Positions 9,114 to 22,958 of a stretch of 43,572 nucleotides of DNA are shown one piece after another; the first letter of the stretch is position 1, and the number at the start of each line of letters is the position of its first letter. The stretch covers positions 1 through 43,572 of the forward strand of contig NZ_NHOY01000003.1 of assembly GCF_002252755.1 (NCBI RefSeq). Direction: 5' to 3'. The DNA comes from Halorubrum sp. Hd13. GTDB lineage: Archaea; Halobacteriota; Halobacteria; Halobacteriales; Haloferacaceae. The notes under the pieces were generated by a model that worked only from the letters and a program-made list of their open reading frames with translations, did not search any database and had not been told where the DNA came from. Both the position numbers and the translations under genes were made by a program.

Positions 9114-9268
9114 GCGGACCGCGCTCCGTCGCTCTCGACGGACGAGAGTTCCGCTCGGACGGGTCGCACCGGGGACGTCACCGAGCTCGGACCGAAAATG
9201 ACCGAATCGAGGGTAGCACCGCTATCACTAACATACATGCGTAGATCGAACCGGCCGCGTCGGTTCAA

Positions 9269-9302
9269 CTGTACTACTGTTAGTACAGTAGGTATTTATA
9301 AC
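9269..9302. promoter_or_regulatory. Perfect 8-bp inverted repeat next to a TATA-like box
   Basis: CTGTACTA at 9269-9276 and TAGTACAG at 9281-9288 are perfect reverse complements separated by CTGT. TATTTATAAC follows at 9293-9302. The 9114-9339 interval lies between the start of the 61-aa gene and the end of the broken HTH-10 gene. It has no gene I can support, and the promoter-operator arrangement reads best to the right or, with a long leader, to the left. Confidence 0.55.
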
Positions 9303-9339
9303 GAGTGGCTGTCCCCGTCGGAGGGGGATCGCCTCCTCG

Positions 9340-9979
9340 TCACGCCGGGGCGACGGTCCCCTCGATGAGCCGGCGATGGCCGCGTTTGATCCGGGAGGAA
9401 AGCGACTGCTGGGAGATGCCGAGCTCCGCCGCGACCTCGTCCAGCGACGCCGTTCGCGGCGAGTCGAAGTAGCCGCGCTCCTACGCCAACACGAGCGCCT
9501 CCCGCTGGGTCTCCGTCAGGTCGTACCCGTCCCCCTGGACCGGCAGGAGCGAGTGGACCGCCGTGATCCCGATGTCGATGTCGCGGTCCTGGCAGTCCGT
9601 CCGGAACTCGCCGATCGCCTCGCGGTCCTCCCCACGGACCTCGAACCGCCAGCCGTCCCGCGTCCCCGCGCCGGAGAGCACGGCGATGTTGGCGTGTGCC
9701 AGCGCGTTCAATACGCCGTAGTAGTCGTCGTCCCACTCCGCGCGCATCATGTACTCGTCGTCGACGTCGTCGACGAGATCGACGCCGGCGACGCCGCGAT
9801 GGGCCTCGAACGCGGACTCGATGTCGGCCGGGCGCGCGCCGCGGACCCAGAAGTAGGGGACGACCACCTCCCGTTCAGGATGAGCCGCTCCAGCTCGACC
9901 GTCGCCCCCGGGAGGTTCCCGAAGACCGTCCCAGCGGGAACTCATCCGCCGGGCTCGTGAACTCTATGACCGTGGCCAT
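9340..9979 (-). pseudogene. Broken HTH-10 (Bat-like) transcriptional regulator
   Basis: A once ~213-aa regulator can be rebuilt across three frames. It starts MATVIEFTSPADEFPLG at 9979. One base is then missing near 9930, and TVFGNLPGATVELERLI continues in the next frame. A second single-base loss near 9888 leads to EREVVVPYFWVRGARPADIE. An in-frame TAG at 9481-9483 then replaces the Tyr expected in the A-Y-E-R-G-Y-F motif, and the HTH continues (DEVAAELGISQQSLSSRIKR) to TGA at 9340-9342. The total of 640 nt plus two lost bases gives 214 whole codons. The paralogue is the divergent neighbour at 10143. Sequencing error could explain one lesion, three less easily. Confidence 0.85.
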
Positions 9980-9999
9980 ACCGAACGGTGACGCGCGAC

Positions 10000-10113
10000 G
10001 CCCATAACCGACGACGATGGTGTACCAAGCAGCGCGGTCGCGGCGGGGGTCCCGCCGTCCGCCCCCGCGATCGCCCAAACCCTGATATACCAAGCTTTCC
10101 CTATTTAACGGGG
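10000..10113. promoter_or_regulatory. Divergent promoter region of the two HTH-10 genes
   Basis: CTATTTAACG at 10101-10110 is a good TATA candidate about 37 nt before the ATG at 10143. A reverse-strand GGTTATGGGC near 10000-10010 sits about 25 nt before the start of the broken gene. TACCAAGC occurs twice in direct orientation, near 10024 and 10088, and may be a shared operator. Confidence 0.45.
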
Positions 10114-10142
10114 AATCGAGAACGGATCAACGAGTCCAACCG

Positions 10143-10799
10143 ATGAGTGTAATCGTGGAGTTCCGCGTCCTGTCCAGCGATTTCGAGCTCGGCCAGATCC
10201 TCTCCGTCGAAGGGGACTCCACCATCGAGCTCGAGACGCTCGTCCCGCTCGGCGAGGCTTCCGTCCCGCTGTTCTGGATCCGCAACTCCACGCGCGAGTC
10301 GTTCGTCGAAAGCGTCCAGCGCCACCCGTCGGTCGAGGAGGCCACGCGGGTCGACGCGTTCGAGGAGCGGACGCTGTTCACCCTCGACTGGGACGCGAAC
10401 CAGGACCACCTCGTCAGCGCCGTGCAATCGAACGACGGACAGATGTTGAGCGCCGTCGGATCGGCGGCGTCGTGGACGTTCGAGGTCCGGTTCCCGACCC
10501 ACGAGTCGCTCAGCGCGTTCTCGACGGACTGCGAGGAGGCCGGCATCGAAATGACGGTGACGCGCGTGTACAACCCCTCTGAGCCGGACGTACAGCCGTG
10601 GCTCGGCCTGACGGAGCCGCAGCTCGAGGCGCTCACGCTCGCGATCGAGATGGGGTACTACGACATCCCGCGCGGCTGTACGACGAAGGAGCTCGCCGAC
10701 GAGCTGGGTATCTCCGACCAGGCCGTCACCGAACGACTCCGGCGCGCCATCACGGCGCTGGTGACCTATACCCTCCCGATCGACAGTGAGAGCCGGTGA
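10143..10799 (+). CDS. HTH-10 family (Bat-like) transcriptional regulator
   Basis: 218 aa. The N-terminal two thirds (MSVIVEFRVLSSDFELGQIL to about residue 145) form the sensory domain found in bacterio-opsin-activator-like haloarchaeal regulators. The C-terminal HTH-10 domain (about 155-212) has LTEPQLEALTLAIEMGYYD followed by TTKELADELGISDQAVTERL, the expected helix-turn-helix. No separate GAF or PAS domain is present. The target is unknown; the gene is divergent from a decayed paralogue, so it may be the surviving copy. A TATA-like box lies at 10101-10110. Confidence 0.85.
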   Translation: MSVIVEFRVLSSDFELGQILSVEGDSTIELETLVPLGEASVPLFWIRNSTRESFVESVQRHPSVEEATRVDAFEERTLFTLDWDANQDHLVSAVQSNDGQMLSAVGSAASWTFEVRFPTHESLSAFSTDCEEAGIEMTVTRVYNPSEPDVQPWLGLTEPQLEALTLAIEMGYYDIPRGCTTKELADELGISDQAVTERLRRAITALVTYTLPIDSESR

Positions 10800-15103: not shown

Positions 15104-15175
15104 TGGAAGTTATATACCTTATATGAGAGTTATTGACAGGACTTGTGTAGGAGTTGACAGGGATATACTTATCAG
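15104..15175 (+). promoter_or_regulatory. Promoter and possible operator repeats of the solute-binding protein
   Basis: GGATATACTTATC at 15161-15173 centres about 31 nt before the ATG at 15198 and is the best TATA box. Just upstream, TTGACAGG occurs at 15133-15140 and 15154-15161, 21 nt apart (two helical turns), abutting the TATA box. A second AT-rich element, TTATATACCTTATATGAG, lies at about 15109-15126. The direct repeats are placed where a repressor could block TBP. Confidence 0.5.
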
Positions 15176-15197
15176 AGAGGGGTCTATATGAGTGGGT

Positions 15198-16598
15198 ATG
15201 TCATACCACAAACGACGGCGTGACGTGTTGAAGACTGTCGGTGTCGCTGGCGCGGTCGGACTCGCCGGCTGTGCGGGCGGGGACGGCGGCGACGGGAGCG
15301 ACGGCGGGGACGGCGGCGACGGCGACGACGGAATGGACGGCGACGATGGCAGCGATGGCAGCGATGGCGGAGACGGCGGCGACGGTGGCAGCGGCGGTCC
15401 GGACCTGCTCACCGTCATCGGTTACCCCGAGAGCGGGATCCAGCTGTTCCGCGACTACTACGCCGCGTCCGACGGGGCGGAGGACATCCTCATCCCCGAC
15501 GGGCTTCAGGACCCATCGTTACCCGGGCAGGTCGGCAACGAGATGAGCAACGTCACCGGGACCGCGCCGGCGGCGGGCGGCCCGAACCAGGAGGCGTTCG
15601 AGAGCCTCTACCAGGACGCCTACGACGAGACGCCGGGCGTGTTCACCTCGCAGTCGTACGACTCCGCGGCCGCGCTGATACTCGCGAACGTCGCGGCGGG
15701 CGAGAACAGCGGGACGGCGATCCGCGACCAGCTCCGGCGGATCGCGAACCCGGACGGCACCGCGTACGGTCCGGGAGAGTTCCTCGACGCGGTCGAGGCG
15801 GCCGCCAACGGCGAGAACATCAACTACCAGGGGGCGTCCAGCGCCGTCAACTTCGACCAGAACGGCGACCCCGCGTCGGCGGCCTACTCCATCTGGGAGT
15901 TCGCCGGGCAGGACGCCGACTCCGTCGACGTCCAGGAGACGCAGAGCTTCGAGGGGGAGAACCCCGACGGCGCCGGCCCCTCGGCCGACTCGTCGCCCGG
16001 CGGGCTCGGCCGCGAGGTGAGCGTCGGGATCCTGCTTCCGGAGACCGGCGACCTGGCGTCGACGGGGCAGCCCATGATCCGCGCGGCCGAGATCCCGGCC
16101 CAGCAGGTCAACGACTCCGACCTCGACCTGACCGTGAACGCTCAGTTCGAGGACACGAACACCTCGCCCGACCAGGGGGTCAGCGGCGCCGAGTCCCTCG
16201 TCAGCGCGGGGGTTCCCGCGGTGTGCGGGACGGCCTCCTCCGGCGTGAACGTCCCCGTCTGTCAGGAGACGCTCATCCCGAACGAGGTCGTCGGCTGCTC
16301 GCCGTCCAGTACCGCGCTGTCGGTGACGAACCTCGAGGACGACGACTACATCTTCCGGACCGCCCCGAGCGACCAGCTGCAGGGCCGGGTCATGGCGCAG
16401 GTCGCCTCGGAGCGGCTCGGCGCCTCGACCGCCGCGACGCTGTACGTCAACAACGACTACGGTCAGCAGCTCTCCGAGCGGTTCAGCAACGTGTTCGAGG
16501 ACACGTTCGACGGCGAGGTGTTCGACCAGATCAGCTTCAACATCGGCGAGTCGTCGTACTCCAACGTCATCGAGCAGGCGCTCTCCAGCGGGAACTGA
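15198..16598 (+). CDS. Circularly permuted solute-binding lipoprotein of a Liv-type ABC transporter
   Basis: 466 aa. Residues 1-25 are a Tat-type lipoprotein signal (KRRRDVL, then GLAGC with C25), followed by a Gly/Asp linker to 67. The rest is a type I periplasmic-binding fold in the wrong order. Residues 68-256 (PDLLTVIGYPESG to ETQSFEGEN) are the family's C-terminal half. A linker follows (257-269). Residues 270-466 (LGREVSVGILLPETGDLA to NVIEQALSSGN) are the normal N-terminal half. In relatives ALSSGN runs straight into PDLLTVIGY. The frame is intact, so a folded permutant is possible. It is convergent with livF and probably serves that transporter. The ATG at 15198 fits the TATA box better than the GTG six bases upstream. 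Confidence 0.82.
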   Translation: MSYHKRRRDVLKTVGVAGAVGLAGCAGGDGGDGSDGGDGGDGDDGMDGDDGSDGSDGGDGGDGGSGGPDLLTVIGYPESGIQLFRDYYAASDGAEDILIPDGLQDPSLPGQVGNEMSNVTGTAPAAGGPNQEAFESLYQDAYDETPGVFTSQSYDSAAALILANVAAGENSGTAIRDQLRRIANPDGTAYGPGEFLDAVEAAANGENINYQGASSAVNFDQNGDPASAAYSIWEFAGQDADSVDVQETQSFEGENPDGAGPSADSSPGGLGREVSVGILLPETGDLASTGQPMIRAAEIPAQQVNDSDLDLTVNAQFEDTNTSPDQGVSGAESLVSAGVPAVCGTASSGVNVPVCQETLIPNEVVGCSPSSTALSVTNLEDDDYIFRTAPSDQLQGRVMAQVASERLGASTAATLYVNNDYGQQLSERFSNVFEDTFDGEVFDQISFNIGESSYSNVIEQALSSGN

Positions 16599-16787: not shown

Positions 16788-17492
16788 CTACCCGCCGAGG
16801 AACTCCCGGCGGACCTCCTCGTCGTGCAGCAGCACGGCCCCCTCGTCCTCGAACCGGTTCTGCCCGTTCGCGAGCACGTACCCGCGGTCGCAGCGTCTGA
16901 GCGCCTCCTTGGCGTTCTGTTCGACCATCAGGACCGCCGTCCCCGACTCGTTGATCTCGTCGATCTTGTCGAACATCTCGTCGACGAGGTCGGGGGCGAG
17001 CCCCGCGCTCGGCTCGTCGAGGAGGAGGAGATCGGGGTCGAGCATCAGCGCCCGACCCATCGCGAGCATCTGGCGCTGACCGCCGCTCATCGTCCCCGCC
17101 TGCTGGTGTTTCCGCTCCTCTAAGATCGGGAAGCGATCGTACACCTTTCGGAGCTCCTCCTGCGGGACCTCGTCGAGGATGTACGCGCCCATCTCGAGGT
17201 TCTCCTCCACGTCGAGCTCCGCGAAGATGTTCTCGTTCTGCGGGACGTACCCCAGTCCCTTGTGGATGACGTCCTCGGGCTTCGTCCCGCTGATGTCCTC
17301 GCCGTCGAACGTCACCGTCCCGCCCATGTGCGTCGTCAGTCCGAACACGGACTTCATGACGGTGGACTTGCCGGCCCCGTTCGGGCCGACGATGGTGACG
17401 TACTCCTCGTCGTCGACGTCGAGGTCGACGTCGGTGAGGATCTGGAGGTCGCCGTAGCCGGCGTCCAGGTCGCGGACCTCGAGGAGGCTCAC
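16788..17492 (-). CDS. livF: Branched-chain amino acid-type ABC transporter ATPase, LivF-like
   Basis: 234 aa. One of the two nucleotide-binding subunits. Walker A is GPNGAGKST, the Q-loop region is GYVPQNENIFAEL, the ABC signature is MSGGQRQMLAMGRAL, and Walker B is LLLLDEPSAGL followed by VLMVEQNA. The PQNENIF and MVEQNAKEAL segments are typical of LivF rather than LivG. It is last in the operon: its ATG overlaps the livG stop by 4 nt. The substrate class (branched-chain amino acids, other amino acids, amides or urea) cannot be fixed from sequence. Confidence 0.9.
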   Translation of the reverse strand: MSLLEVRDLDAGYGDLQILTDVDLDVDDEEYVTIVGPNGAGKSTVMKSVFGLTTHMGGTVTFDGEDISGTKPEDVIHKGLGYVPQNENIFAELDVEENLEMGAYILDEVPQEELRKVYDRFPILEERKHQQAGTMSGGQRQMLAMGRALMLDPDLLLLDEPSAGLAPDLVDEMFDKIDEINESGTAVLMVEQNAKEALRRCDRGYVLANGQNRFEDEGAVLLHDEEVRREFLGG

Positions 17493-18445
17493 ACCTCACC
17501 CCCGAGGTACGCCTCGATGACCTCCTCGCTCTCCTTGATCTCCGTCGGGGTCCCGTCCTTCAGGATCCGGCCCTGGTGCATGACGATGACCCGCTCGCAG
17601 TTGTTCATGATGAGGTCCATGTCGTGTTCCACGATGAGGAAGGTGTACCCCTGCTCGCGCAGCTCGTGGACGTGTTCGAGCAGCCGCTTCTCCAGCGAGG
17701 GGTTGACCCCGGCGAACGGCTCGTCCAGGAGCAGCACGTCCGGGTCCGTCAGGAGCGCTCGGGCCATCTCCAGCAGCTTCCGCTGGCCGCCGGAGAGGTT
17801 CCCCGCGTACTCCTGCGCGAGGTGGTCGATCTCGAAGAAGTCGAGCACCTCCCAGACCCGTTCGAGCTGTTCGGTCTCCTGCTCGCGGACCGCCCCGCGC
17901 GTCATCGGCATGATCGACCGCCACAGCGACTCGCCGACCTGTCCCTTCGGCGCGAGCATCATGTTCTCGAGGACCGTCATCTCCTCCAGCTCGCGCGCGA
18001 TCTGGAACGTCCGGGCGAGCCCGCGGTTCGCGACCTCGTGGGGCTGGAGCCCCGTGACATCCTCGCCGTTGAACCGGACCGCCCCCTCGTCGGGGTTCAG
18101 CATCCCCGTGATGAGGTTGAACGTCGTCGACTTCCCGGCGCCGTTCGGGCCGATGAGTCCGGTGAGCGTCCCCTCCTCGACATCGAAGCTGACGTCGTCG
18201 ACGGCGACGATTCCCCCGAACTCCTTGCGGAGCCCCTCGACCTCGAGCGGGGCGTACCGCTCCCCGTCGCTCCCGCTCGGGAAGTCGGCCTCGGACCCCA
18301 TCGCCTCGTTCAGACCGGTCTCGGACGCCGACCCGTCGGCGGGGGCCTCGCCCGCGGCGTCGTCGCCGTCCGTCTGGGCGTCGTCCGTCGCGGCGTCATC
18401 GACCGGCGTCGACGCGCTCGGGGCGGACTCGTCGGTCTCGCTCAT
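17489..18445 (-). CDS. livG: Branched-chain amino acid-type ABC transporter ATPase, LivG-like
   Basis: 318 aa. Residues 1-68 are an acidic, low-complexity extension (rich in D, A, E, S and T), unlike the usual LivG of about 250 aa. The ATPase begins at LEVEGLRKEFGGIVAVDDVS. Walker A is GPNGAGKSTTFNLITG, then GLARTFQIAREL (LivG-type Q-loop), LSGGQRKLLEMARALL and LLLDEPFAGVNP. TFLIVEHDMDLIMNNCERVI and the short C-terminal tail EVIEAYLGGEV are also LivG features. It overlaps livM and livF by 4 nt on each side, so the subunits are probably made in step. Confidence 0.9.
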   Translation of the reverse strand: MSETDESAPSASTPVDDAATDDAQTDGDDAAGEAPADGSASETGLNEAMGSEADFPSGSDGERYAPLEVEGLRKEFGGIVAVDDVSFDVEEGTLTGLIGPNGAGKSTTFNLITGMLNPDEGAVRFNGEDVTGLQPHEVANRGLARTFQIARELEEMTVLENMMLAPKGQVGESLWRSIMPMTRGAVREQETEQLERVWEVLDFFEIDHLAQEYAGNLSGGQRKLLEMARALLTDPDVLLLDEPFAGVNPSLEKRLLEHVHELREQGYTFLIVEHDMDLIMNNCERVIVMHQGRILKDGTPTEIKESEEVIEAYLGGEV

Positions 18446-19818
18446 CGCTCTTCACCCCCGTCGGCGGCCGCCGGCTTTCCGGGCGCCTCGTCGGTTCCCG
18501 GCCGCGCGAGGTCGACGCTCGACGCGGTCTCCTTGCGGTGGCCGAGCAGCCCCTCCGGTCGGTTGTGCATCAGCCAGATCAGCACCACGCCCATGATCAC
18601 CAGCCGCAGCTGGCTGACGCTGTCGAGCGTGTACAGGACGAACGGCATCGGGTCGAGCGAGGCGAACCCCGCCATCGCCTCGCCGAAGTTCCGCGGCGCG
18701 TCGCCGAGCTCGAACGCCGTCTCGACGAGGTTCTTGAAGTACCGCGGCCCCTCGTACAGCAGTCCGGCGAATATCGCGCCGCCGAGGAAGCTCCCGGTGT
18801 TCGAACCCGCGCCCCCGATGATCAGCGCGATCCAGATGAAGAACGTGATGTTCGGGCGGAACGAGGGCGGCGTGATGCTCCCGCGGCTGGAGTACCAGAG
18901 GATCCCGCCGAGCCCCATCAGCGCGGAGCCGAGCACGAACGCCGTGAGCTTGAACCGGTCGGTGTCTTTCCCCAGCGCGTTCGCGACGTCCTCGTCCTCG
19001 CGGATCGCCTTCAGGACGCGCCCGAACGGCGACTTGCCGGTCCGCGAGAGCAGGACGTAGAACAGCCCGACGCCGACGAGGAGGAGGATCCCGTACGCCA
19101 CCCCGTCGATCACCGGCTTGGGGTTGTTCGGGATGTAGTTCCGCTCGACGAACGCGACGACGCCGAGGTACGGCTCCCAGAGGAACAGGGATCTGAGCAG
19201 CGCCTCGAGCGGGTCCGCGTAGTTCAGGATGAGCCCGCCGCCGCCGCCGAGACCGACCGTGTCGGCCGTCGGGTCGAACGTGAACAGCCAGAGGTCGATC
19301 GTGTCCGGCACCGTGAACGTCTGGAACGTCCGGGACATCATCGTGAACCGGACGATCTCGGAGAACGCGACCGTGACGATCGCGAGGTAGTCCGCCCGGA
19401 GGCGGAGCGCGGGCAACGCGACGAGGAGCCCGAACAGCCCCGCCGCGATCACGCCGGCGGCGATCCCGACGCTGAGCGGGAGCCCGAAGCCGCCGACCTG
19501 CGCGGCGCCGCCCTCGGCGACCGGCGGCTTCGACACCAGCGCGGTCACGTAAATGCCGATTCCCATGAAGCCGACGATGCCGATGTTGAACAGCCCGGTG
19601 TACCCCCAGTGGAGGTTCAACGCCAGCGCGAGCATGCCGAAGACGCCGATGTAGAACGTGAGGTTCGCGACCGAGTTCAGCTGTCCCCGGAGCCCGTATC
19701 CGAACGCGACCCCGGCGAGGATGTACGCGAGGTAGAGCGTTCCGAGGACGGCGAGGACGAGCGTCACGTCCCGCTCGAAGAGGCCCTCGATCCGCCCGCG
19801 GATGTCAGTGGCGCTCAT
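18442..19818 (-). CDS. livM: Branched-chain amino acid-type ABC permease, LivM-like
   Basis: 458 aa. The start is the ATG at 19818, overlapping the livH stop as ATGA; the frame is open upstream but that is the antisense-like shadow of livH. LivM signatures are LALNLHWGYTGLFNIGIVGF and LPALRLRADYLAIVTVAFSE, and in the last third FGRVLKAIREDEDVANALGK (the EAA loop contacting the ATPase). About 10 membrane helices. The hydrophilic C-terminal ~40 residues are acidic and probably cytoplasmic. An insert around residues 185-245 holds a poly-Gly stretch in VGLGGGGGLILNY. Confidence 0.9.
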   Translation of the reverse strand: MSATDIRGRIEGLFERDVTLVLAVLGTLYLAYILAGVAFGYGLRGQLNSVANLTFYIGVFGMLALALNLHWGYTGLFNIGIVGFMGIGIYVTALVSKPPVAEGGAAQVGGFGLPLSVGIAAGVIAAGLFGLLVALPALRLRADYLAIVTVAFSEIVRFTMMSRTFQTFTVPDTIDLWLFTFDPTADTVGLGGGGGLILNYADPLEALLRSLFLWEPYLGVVAFVERNYIPNNPKPVIDGVAYGILLLVGVGLFYVLLSRTGKSPFGRVLKAIREDEDVANALGKDTDRFKLTAFVLGSALMGLGGILWYSSRGSITPPSFRPNITFFIWIALIIGGAGSNTGSFLGGAIFAGLLYEGPRYFKNLVETAFELGDAPRNFGEAMAGFASLDPMPFVLYTLDSVSQLRLVIMGVVLIWLMHNRPEGLLGHRKETASSVDLARPGTDEAPGKPAAADGGEER

Positions 19819-20927
19819 GCCGTCGTCCTCCCGCTGAAGATGCCTTCGGGCTTGAACAGTAGGATCACGATCATCACCAGGAACGCGGCCGCGCGGCCGA
19901 ACTCGGAGGGGATCCAGACCACGGAAACGGACGCGGTCAGACCGATGATGATGCCCCCGCCGATCGCGCCGTAGATCGACCCGATACCGCCGAGGATGAC
20001 CGCGGCGAACACGAGCAGCAGCAGCAGCCACCCGTCGTTGAACCCGAGCGTCCCCTTCCAGAGGACGAACATGTAGCCGGCGACGCCCGTGAGCCCGGCG
20101 CCGACGATCCACGTCGTGCGGATGACGCGCTCGGTCGGGATGCCGGTGATCCGCGCGAGGTCCTCGTTGTCGGACATGGCGCGCATGGCCTTCCCGAGCT
20201 TCGTCCGCTGCAGGAGCAGGTGCACCCCCAGCATGAGGCCGCCCGCGACGACCACGAGGCTGATGTCGTGGGCCGTCACCCGGAACGTCCCGTCTATCGC
20301 GGGGACGTTCACGCGCGGGACCGACCCCGCCGCGGTCGTTCCGCGCACGCCCGCCCCGTAGACGAACTGGAGCAGGTACCGCAGCGCGAACGCGACCCCG
20401 ATGCTGGTGATGAGCAGCGCGATACCGCTCTCGTCGCGGATCGGCCGGTAGACGAACCGGTCGATCGCGAGCGCCAGCGCGATCGTGACGATCCCCGCCA
20501 GAAGAGCCCCGAGGACGACGGCGATCGGCGCGGTCGTGACCCCGATCCCGAGCGCGCCGCCGAACACCGACCCGCCCGCGCCGACGAGCAGGAGCGCGCC
20601 GACGCTGTTCTCGCCGATCCCGGCGACGAGGTAGCTGGTCCCCATCCCGGCGAACGCCCCGGTAGTGAGGTAGTCGCCGTGCGCGAAGTTCGCGAAGTTG
20701 AGAATGCTGTACGTCATCGAGAGTCCGATACCCGCCAGACCGATGATCAGGCCCCGAAGTAACCCGTCCCAGATCAGGGACGCGAGGCTGCTGATCTGAA
20801 TCCCCCCGGTCAGGAGCCCGGACACGAGCGACCAAGCCATCCACAGGGCCACGAGCAGGACCCCGATGGCGAGCGGTTCCTCGCTGAGGGTTCGGCGGTA
20901 TCGGACGTACGTTTCAGAGACACTCAC
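19815..20927 (-). CDS. livH: Branched-chain amino acid-type ABC permease, LivH-like
   Basis: 370 aa, first gene of livHMGF, with a GTG start. LivH features are GLIIGLAGIGLSMTYSILNF and FAHGDYLTTGAFAGM (the conserved N-F-A-H-G-D block), TKLGKAMRAMSDNEDLARIT (EAA loop) and AAVILGGIGSIYGAIGGGI near the C-terminus. It has a longer N-terminal helix pair and an insert at about 110-140 compared with the ~300-aa bacterial LivH. No binding-protein gene is encoded at its 5' side; the only candidate partner is the convergent lipoprotein beyond livF. Confidence 0.9.
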   Translation of the reverse strand: MSVSETYVRYRRTLSEEPLAIGVLLVALWMAWSLVSGLLTGGIQISSLASLIWDGLLRGLIIGLAGIGLSMTYSILNFANFAHGDYLTTGAFAGMGTSYLVAGIGENSVGALLLVGAGGSVFGGALGIGVTTAPIAVVLGALLAGIVTIALALAIDRFVYRPIRDESGIALLITSIGVAFALRYLLQFVYGAGVRGTTAAGSVPRVNVPAIDGTFRVTAHDISLVVVAGGLMLGVHLLLQRTKLGKAMRAMSDNEDLARITGIPTERVIRTTWIVGAGLTGVAGYMFVLWKGTLGFNDGWLLLLLVFAAVILGGIGSIYGAIGGGIIIGLTASVSVVWIPSEFGRAAAFLVMIVILLFKPEGIFSGRTTA

Positions 20928-21269: not shown

Positions 21270-22928
21270 TCAGTACCCCTGCGCGTTGCCGTCCTTCCGG
21301 GGCTCGGTGGCGGCCGAGAGGACCCCGTCCTCGTTGCGGACGATCTGCGCGCCGCCGAACTGGACCGGCGAGAGCGTTCTGACGTCGTGGTTCTTCCGAA
21401 CCAGCTTCGCGGTGACGTCGTCGTCGAAGTGCGGCTCGACGCCCAGCTCGCCGCTCTCGCGGTACCGCCACCGCGGCTCGTCGAGGGCGCGCTGGAGCGG
21501 CATGTCGTAGTCGACGACGTTCGATATCACCTGCACGTGCCCCTGTGGCTGCATGTACCCGCCCATCACGCCGAAGGCGGCCCAGTCGTCCTCGCCGAGG
21601 CGAACGATCGCGGGGACCAGCGTGTGGAACGGGCGCTTACCGGGTTCGAGGCTGTTCGGGTGCTCGGGGTCGAGCGAGAAGGACGCGCCGCGGTTCTGGA
21701 GGGCGATCCCCGTCTCGCCCGCGACGAGCCCGGAGCCGAAGCCGGCGAACCGCGAGTTGATGTAGGAGACGACGTTCCCCTCGTCGTCGGCGACGGTGAG
21801 CAACACCGTGTCGGCGTCTTCGGCGTCGGCGTTCGGTACGCCGAACGAGACGTCGTGGTCGGCCGTGGGCCCGACGCCGGCCGCCCGCTCCGCCGCCCAG
21901 TCGGCCGACCCGAGCGGCGGGATCTCCTCGTACTCGGGGTCGGCGATGTAACGGTGGCCGTCGTGAAAGGCCAGCTTCAACGCCTCGGCGAAGTAGTGGA
22001 CGCGGTCGGCGGTGTCGTAGCCGTGCTCGCCGGCGCCGAGCTCGCTCGCGATGTTGAGCGCCTCCAACGCGATGAGCCCCTGGTTGTTCGGCGGGAGCTC
22101 GTACACCTCGGCGCCGTTGTACGTCGTCGAGATCGGGTCGGGCCACTCGACCTCGAAGTCGGCGAGGTCGTCCACGGTCATGAACCCGCCCTGCGACTGG
22201 ATCTCCCCGGCGATCTCCTCGGCGATCTCCCCCTCGTACACCACGTCTGCGCCGTGCTCCGCGATCTTCTCCATCGACTCGCCGAGCCGCGGGAGCGTGA
22301 CCGTCTCGCCGACCGCGGGCGCCTCGCCGTCGAACAGGAACGCCTCCCGGGCGTGGTCGTCGGTGAACAGCTCCTCGGCGCCGGCCCAGTAGGACGCGAT
22401 GACCTCGGAGACGGGGTACCCCTCGGTGGCGTACCGGATGGCCGGTTCGAGGGCGTCGGCGAGGGTGAGCCGCCCGAGCTCCTCGATCGTCGCCTCCCAG
22501 CCCCGGGCCGTGCCCGGCACCGTGACCGCGTGGGGGCCGTAGAACGGCATGCCGGCCTCGTCGGTGTCGTCGACCGCGTAGCCGCCGTCGTCGGGGTAGT
22601 ACGAGGAGACGTCGTCGGTCTCCCGCAGCGAGTCGCGGACGTTCTCGATCGTCGCGTCGGCGGGCGCGCCGCCGCAGGCGCGCATCGATCCCACCTCGCC
22701 GTCGGCCGTTCGGTACAGCGCGAAGACGTCGCCGCCGAGCCCCGTCGACGTCGGCTCGACGACGTTGAGCGCGGCCGCCGTCGCCACCGCCGCGTCGAAG
22801 GCGTTCCCGCCCTCGCGAAGCGTCTCGATCCCGGCCTGGCTGGCGAGGGGCTGGCTGGTGGCGACGACGCCGCGCTGACCGTACACCGTCGATCGGCGAG
22901 AAGTGAACCGGTCCAAGTCTGGTTCCAT
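21270..22928 (-). CDS. ggt: Gamma-glutamyltransferase / glutathione hydrolase family
   Basis: 552 aa from the ATG at 22928. The in-frame ATG at 22949 is rejected because it overlaps the TATA box. Ggt enzymes self-cleave before a Thr that becomes the N-terminal nucleophile of the small subunit; here that is T374 in AEDADTVLLTVADDEGN. The large subunit has STGLGGDVFALY and GTARGWEATIEELGRL; the small subunit has FGSGLVAGETGIALQNRG, PFHTLVPAIV and FGVMGGYMQPQGHVQV. No signal peptide is visible, so it is probably cytoplasmic. In haloarchaea gamma-glutamylcysteine is the main thiol and a plausible substrate (inference). Divergent from the dpp operon. Confidence 0.9.
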   Translation of the reverse strand: MEPDLDRFTSRRSTVYGQRGVVATSQPLASQAGIETLREGGNAFDAAVATAAALNVVEPTSTGLGGDVFALYRTADGEVGSMRACGGAPADATIENVRDSLRETDDVSSYYPDDGGYAVDDTDEAGMPFYGPHAVTVPGTARGWEATIEELGRLTLADALEPAIRYATEGYPVSEVIASYWAGAEELFTDDHAREAFLFDGEAPAVGETVTLPRLGESMEKIAEHGADVVYEGEIAEEIAGEIQSQGGFMTVDDLADFEVEWPDPISTTYNGAEVYELPPNNQGLIALEALNIASELGAGEHGYDTADRVHYFAEALKLAFHDGHRYIADPEYEEIPPLGSADWAAERAAGVGPTADHDVSFGVPNADAEDADTVLLTVADDEGNVVSYINSRFAGFGSGLVAGETGIALQNRGASFSLDPEHPNSLEPGKRPFHTLVPAIVRLGEDDWAAFGVMGGYMQPQGHVQVISNVVDYDMPLQRALDEPRWRYRESGELGVEPHFDDDVTAKLVRKNHDVRTLSPVQFGGAQIVRNEDGVLSAATEPRKDGNAQGY

Positions 22929-22948
22929 ACCCTCGATCCGGCGCCCCA

Positions 22949-22958
22949 CATTATAAAC
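22949..22958 (-). promoter_or_regulatory. TATA box of ggt
   Basis: Reverse-strand TTTATAATG centres about 25 nt before the ATG at 22928, the spacing of a leaderless transcript, and decides between the two candidate starts. Confidence 0.6.

Follow-up and report, generated by a model that had tools for sequence, protein, structure and literature searches.

Does a haloarchaeal substrate-binding protein carry the two parts of its fold in reversed order and, if so, how did this order arise? The question is raised by a gene of Halorubrum sp. Hd13 located in the window, i.e. the whole stretch of DNA that was analysed (43,572 nucleotides, contig NZ_NHOY01000003.1, positions 1 to 43,572 of the forward strand). 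A first-pass annotation had read this gene as a natural circular permutation of a type I solute-binding lipoprotein.

Gene architecture and order of the parts

The open reading frame spans positions 15198-16598 and, from its ATG start, encodes 466 residues followed by a TGA stop codon; an in-frame GTG is present at 15192. The following features were assigned to the gene:

15160..15171, + strand: possible archaeal TATA box GGGATATACTTA, inferred from sequence reading only
15198..15272, + strand: Tat lipoprotein signal peptide, residues 1-25 (RRR twin arginine, lipobox LAGC; from the translation)
15273..15395, + strand: Gly/Asp-rich spacer from the lipidated Cys to the domain, residues 26-66 (from the translation; low pLDDT)
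15396..15965, + strand: half A, residues 67-256, PDLLTVIGYP ... ETQSFEGENP (C-terminal, up to the stop codon, in conventional relatives)
15966..16004, + strand: linker DGAGPSADSSPGG, residues 257-269 (conserved in the perm1 clade, kept in re-permuted relatives; pLDDT about 80-92)
16005..16595, + strand: half B, residues 270-466, LGREVSVGILLPETG ... ALSSGN (matches Peripla_BP_6; superposes on 3ipc and 4n0q)

The putative TATA box lies about 32 bases 5' of the ATG; if it is genuine, the transcript would be nearly leaderless. The motif RRRDVLK...LAGC opens the translated protein, which meets the features of a Tat lipoprotein, namely a twin arginine, a hydrophobic stretch and the lipobox Cys in RRRDVLKTVGVAGAVGLAGC, with lipidation itself only inferred. 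A comparable module of signal and spacer was found in about 30 further genes of the same genome. In the type I binding fold, half B would normally come first and half A second. The 13-residue linker bridges the ancestral C- and N-termini, and the new termini fall in the loop between the helix ending in ALSSGN and the next strand, PDLLTVIGYP (site 1). The signal, spacer, PDLL start, ETQSFEGEN end, linker, LGREVSVGILLPETG start and ALSSGN followed by TGA all lie where the first-pass annotation had placed them.

Profile and structure-chain searches agreed on the reversed order. Positions 1-190 of the Pfam profile Peripla_BP_6 align to residues 273-465, so that the first part of the profile stands C-terminal, and the native sequence gave two out-of-order matches, whereas rejoining the halves conventionally gave a single match that runs from profile position 1 to 323 of 343 (E 1.9e-34). 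The PDB chain 3td9 likewise matched the native sequence in two out-of-order stretches and the reordered sequence in one; the reordered sequence aligned continuously to 3td9, 4n0q, 4gnr and 3ipc, where the native one gave split or half matches, and reached E-values down to 8e-17 against PDB HAAT proteins. The protein therefore shows whole-domain homology to PF13458 (HAAT/LivJ type I) without its canonical N-to-C order of parts, and since the parts are reversed we class it as a permuted variant and not as a canonical member. As judged from these sequence comparisons, the gene encodes a circularly permuted type I (HAAT/LivJ) binding protein, with neither loss nor duplication.

The same relation is visible among orthologues. 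Where the order is conventional, xPDxLxVIGYP comes directly after a helix whose end reads ...YTSKLQSAL, and the halves are fused without a linker (e.g. ALGGG directly joined to PDALVVIGYP in L076), a direct join that the first-pass annotation had stated for relatives. In permuted orthologues the new termini lie in this loop, and a short linker connects the old ones; it differs between clades: DGAGPSADSSPGG in perm1 (the clade of the window protein), RNATAADPVGV in perm2, IPQPEPNGSGSD in perm3 and GGGGSDSIPGS in L180.

Predicted fold, ligand and tether

AlphaFold2 modelled the window protein with a mean pLDDT of 85 and a pTM of 0.81, the core lying mostly above 90; structure prediction had been proposed as a check on whether the permutant could fold. 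When superposed, half B of the model matches 3ipc over residues 1-193 and 4n0q over its N-terminal half (Z 15.2, rmsd under 2); sequential structure aligners were unable to fit half A together with half B. In the model, helix 455-462 and strand 70-74 flank the site-1 cut, which falls about 190 residues inside the domain.

Across 80 permuted proteins 53 columns were invariant, among them D101, S348, T372 and Y421, drawn from both halves, which we take to match the amino-acid ligand contacts of LIVBP structures. That the protein binds an amino acid or a related solute is an inference from conserved residues and family, without binding data. The protein would fold as a normal two-lobed trap, catch its solute outside the cell and pass it to LivHM. 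In the type I fold, helix-to-strand loops sit at the lobe poles, remote from the cleft; permutation there would leave the pocket and the docking faces intact, and with a cut at site 1 the lipid tether should be carried by lobe 2 instead of lobe 1, an expectation that rests on general knowledge of the fold.

The importer locus

Four genes of an ABC importer lie next to the binding-protein gene in the window, assigned as open reading frames and by comparison of loci:

16788..17492, - strand: livF-like ATPase gene, convergent with the binding-protein gene and its neighbour in nearly all loci with enough flank
17489..18445, - strand: livG-like ATPase gene
18442..19818, - strand: livM-like permease gene (start at MSATDIRG inferred)
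19815..20927, - strand: livH-like permease gene

In most loci with enough flanking sequence, livF, livG, livM and livH are convergent with the binding-protein gene, whether this is conventional or permuted, and being encoded with LivH, LivM, LivG and LivF, a mark of HAAT proteins, holds for the window and most of these relatives. The simplest reading is that the permutation occurred in place and that the permuted protein serves the same importer. We consider it highly probable that the product of the gene is a circularly permuted substrate-binding protein, tethered to the membrane, that belongs to the adjacent LivHMGF-type ABC importer.

A gamma-glutamyltransferase-like gene (21270-22949) adjoins the locus in the window. 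Such a gene is found near the locus in many genomes of both Halorubrum subfamilies described below, after livH or before the binding-protein gene, and in the other permuted subfamily it lies on the opposite side of the binding-protein gene; this neighbour hints that the importer and released amino acids are connected. Halorubrum sp. Hd13 also encodes a second type I binding protein (L170; G000:C54, about 9128-10375), which has conventional order, is about 33% identical and has its own liv genes; it offers a natural conventional-order control within the same genome.

Distribution and selection

When each species was represented by a single genome, the scan yielded 76 loci, and the majority of these matched the window protein collinearly, either along residues 1-466 or along the entire core. 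Collinear loci were found in Halorubrum, Halobellus, Halorussus, Haloferax, Haloplanus, Haloprofundus, Natrialba, Natronorubrum and others, and the permuted order was also present on contigs whose titles name them as the chromosomes of Halospeciosus flavus and of Halostella pelagica (the latter a complete genome). Within Haloferax, H. gibbonsii (L073) and H. denitrificans (L030) have orthologues. From the class, 292 genomes were sampled evenly, and a long collinear match with E below 1e-100 was counted as permuted; on this basis about 126 genomes contained collinear permuted orthologues (48-96% identical), while about 88 others gave matches only as half-length pieces; those half-length matches that were fetched had conventional order, except for the re-permuted ones treated below. 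Halorubrum itself has two permuted subfamilies, one sharing 88-96% and the other about 50% identity with the window protein.

The first-pass annotation had named a chimeric breakpoint at 15399 or 16598 as what would turn its reading into an assembly artefact. The genome of the window is indeed a draft of 130 contigs, but the same order recurs in many independent assemblies, including those of Halostella pelagica and Halospeciosus flavus, and a misassembled or chimeric contig is effectively refuted. The same holds, for the family as a whole, for the idea of a decaying pseudogene in which the order of parts no longer matters: single genes are indeed damaged, one being interrupted by an inserted element (L188, second subfamily) and one split across two reading frames (L059), but pairwise dN/dS against close relatives was 0.05-0.25 in half A and in half B, well under 1, the invariant columns noted above run across the family, and the gene is retained beside the permease across the class. 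The linker was nearly constant among the close relatives compared for dN/dS.

The permuted state is old, under purifying selection and seated at a locus that is conventional in other haloarchaea. Together with the collinear orthologues known from many genera and the confidently predicted fold, this bears out a natural circular permutation, though one not confined to this genome: the event is ancient and has apparently been repeated within the family. The sequence AGCGG, proposed by the first-pass annotation as microhomology at which a deletion followed tandem duplication, is indeed common to both breakpoints in the window, but only 9 of 126 permuted relatives have it. Lacking conservation, it cannot be the scar of so old an event and is uninformative on how that event took place; judged by its distribution among relatives, the microhomology is coincidental.

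Several irregular loci were observed. In L188:6170-7551 (G017:C2) the permuted gene is broken by about 1.36 kb containing a 396-codon open reading frame with matching inverted ends, probably an insertion sequence. Tandem pairs of permuted binding-protein genes stand beside a single liv permease set in L055:5794-8619 and L184:4380-7192, and in each pair one copy apparently lacks the lipobox Cys and the long spacer. Finally, the permuted protein of L056:5989-7818 lacks the final ALSSGN and stop and reads through about 144 codons, as if after a small 3' indel.

Phylogeny of the site-1 permutation

Trees were built from halves set in a common order, and groups were named by domain order before topologies were tested. 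In the binding-protein tree, perm1 comprised 37 sequences with support of 100/99; perm2 (100/99) was placed within a 100/100 clade holding six conventional sequences, and perm3 (100/100) in a mixed 100/97 clade. Further permuted placements were L180/L214, and L215 beside the conventional L137/L237. The tree of the linked permease genes likewise requires several changes of order.

Two other sources of such a pattern were considered. A chimera of halves with different histories was rejected as unlikely, given that trees from half A only and from half B only recovered the same five groups. Horizontal transfer behind the scattered permuted clades would unite the permuted proteins in the binding-protein tree, which was not the case.

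For the binding protein alone, a single permuted clade was not formally rejected (p 0.06). It was rejected with the binding protein, LivF and LivG combined (AU p = 6.6e-6), as was a clade of perm1 plus perm2 on the same combined data (p 4e-4); the combined data presuppose a single history for the locus. Since the forms permuted at site 1 do not make up one clade, the phylogeny establishes that permutation at this site either recurred or arose and was reverted, and leaves undecided which of the two took place.

A second, nested permutation

Five genomes contained a third order of parts (L242, L239, L254, L255 and L261, from G476, G521, G530, G485 and G557, respectively). The automatic order test had first scored four of these loci as conventional, the fifth being L261. 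In particular, the order is signal, spacer, half B from about residue 42-44 to its end, half A, a perm1-type linker (EGAGPSADSMPGS or DGAGPSAEETPGS), then half B again, starting at residue 2-5 and ending at about 33-43, before the stop. All five genomes are draft assemblies and belong to two genera. The main segments are each about 63-74% identical to the window protein, and the genes adjoin livF and livG.

The re-permuted proteins nest within perm1 in the permease tree (98) and in the binding-protein and combined trees (100/99). As they retain the perm1 linker, the second event permuted an already permuted protein; a single origin for it was not rejected (p 0.26). The second cut (site 2) precedes strand 2 and falls again in a helix-to-strand loop, between helix 287-305 and strand 311-319 of the window model. 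By the same reasoning from loop positions in the type I fold, it should return the tether to lobe 1, beside its original position.

Origin of the permuted order

We infer that the permuted order may have originated when the core domain was duplicated in tandem within the gene, following the signal and spacer, after which trimming at both ends would leave the parts reversed. Permutation by duplication is a reviewed model (PMC3320104), and here it would account for the seamless junctions and for the reuse of the signal-spacer module. No duplicated or partly trimmed intermediates were found among the fetched open reading frames, the class not having been searched exhaustively. Splitting of the gene into separate halves and their re-fusion in the opposite order is another recognised route (PMC3320104), which we regard as improbable here: no genes for split halves lie beside the permease in the fetched loci, and apart from disrupted genes both halves are always in a single open reading frame.

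As to the number of events, we give about even odds to several independent permutations at the same helix-to-strand loop, followed in one permuted lineage by a permutation at a second loop, with the tether shifting between lobes and the pocket and permease kept. One early site-1 permutation in Halobacteria, reverted in several lineages by the same process of duplication and trimming, stays a tentative alternative. All permuted clades share the same cut, some linkers are alike (ADSSPGG, SDSIPGS, ADYPGS), and the re-permuted proteins show that the ancestral junction can be seamlessly restored. This alternative would nevertheless require at least three exact reversions without any remnant of a linker, the perm2 and perm3 linkers appear unrelated to that of perm1, and the conventional proteins share their termini with conventional outgroups.

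Comparison with known systems

A natural circularly permuted type I binding protein has been described in Treponema pallidum, TpMglB-2 (Tp0684), for which a 'Type Ic / Cluster Bc' was proposed and which still binds its ligand, glucose (PMC4990184). Like the haloarchaeal protein, it has a permuted type I fold, is lipid-tethered and is encoded beside an ABC importer. It belongs to the bacterial MglB subfamily, and its cut sends the first three N-lobe strands to the C-terminus and creates a fourth lobe crossover; the haloarchaeal protein, in contrast, is archaeal, of HAAT/LivJ type and cut in lobe 2, and in relatives the same locus holds conventional or re-permuted orthologues. Of the features of Type Ic, it therefore has the permuted type I fold and lacks the N-lobe cut after the third strand with unaffected C-lobe strand order. 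Its best sequence matches were all of HAAT/LivJ type, with no MglB among the matches listed. An adaptation of the tether was suggested for TpMglB-2, and whether tether position matters was left open (PMC4990184).

Compared with LivJ/LivK HAAT proteins (3td9, 4n0q, 3ipc, 1usg), with which it shares PF13458, alignable halves and the same importer genes, the permutant has reversed parts, a linker between the old termini and the tether elsewhere on the fold. Glycine-betaine-binding proteins of ABC importers are also interrelated by circular permutation (PMC2395249), but what is reported is a structural relation between divergent proteins that have a different type of binding fold; they are not orthologues of one locus and show no serial permutation. 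DNA methyltransferases and saposin/swaposin likewise represent natural rearrangements of parts within one fold, and for the methyltransferases duplicated intermediates are documented (PMC3320104), whereas none was found for the haloarchaeal protein among the fetched open reading frames.

Our literature search, which left most subscription journals outside its coverage, found no report of permuted haloarchaeal binding proteins. Permuted type I binding proteins as such were already known; what is apparently new is a serial, apparently recurrent permutation, at another cut and in another subfamily. For the haloarchaea a practical consequence is that an unbroken match to a family profile covers just a part of such a protein, and annotation and alignment of their binding proteins can mislead. 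As a rule, a natural circular permutation is inferred by comparing distant relatives. In the present case, one syntenic locus holds orthologues with alignable halves in three orders, one of which arose by permuting an already permuted protein. This makes the origin of permutation, its neutrality and the importance of tether position testable.
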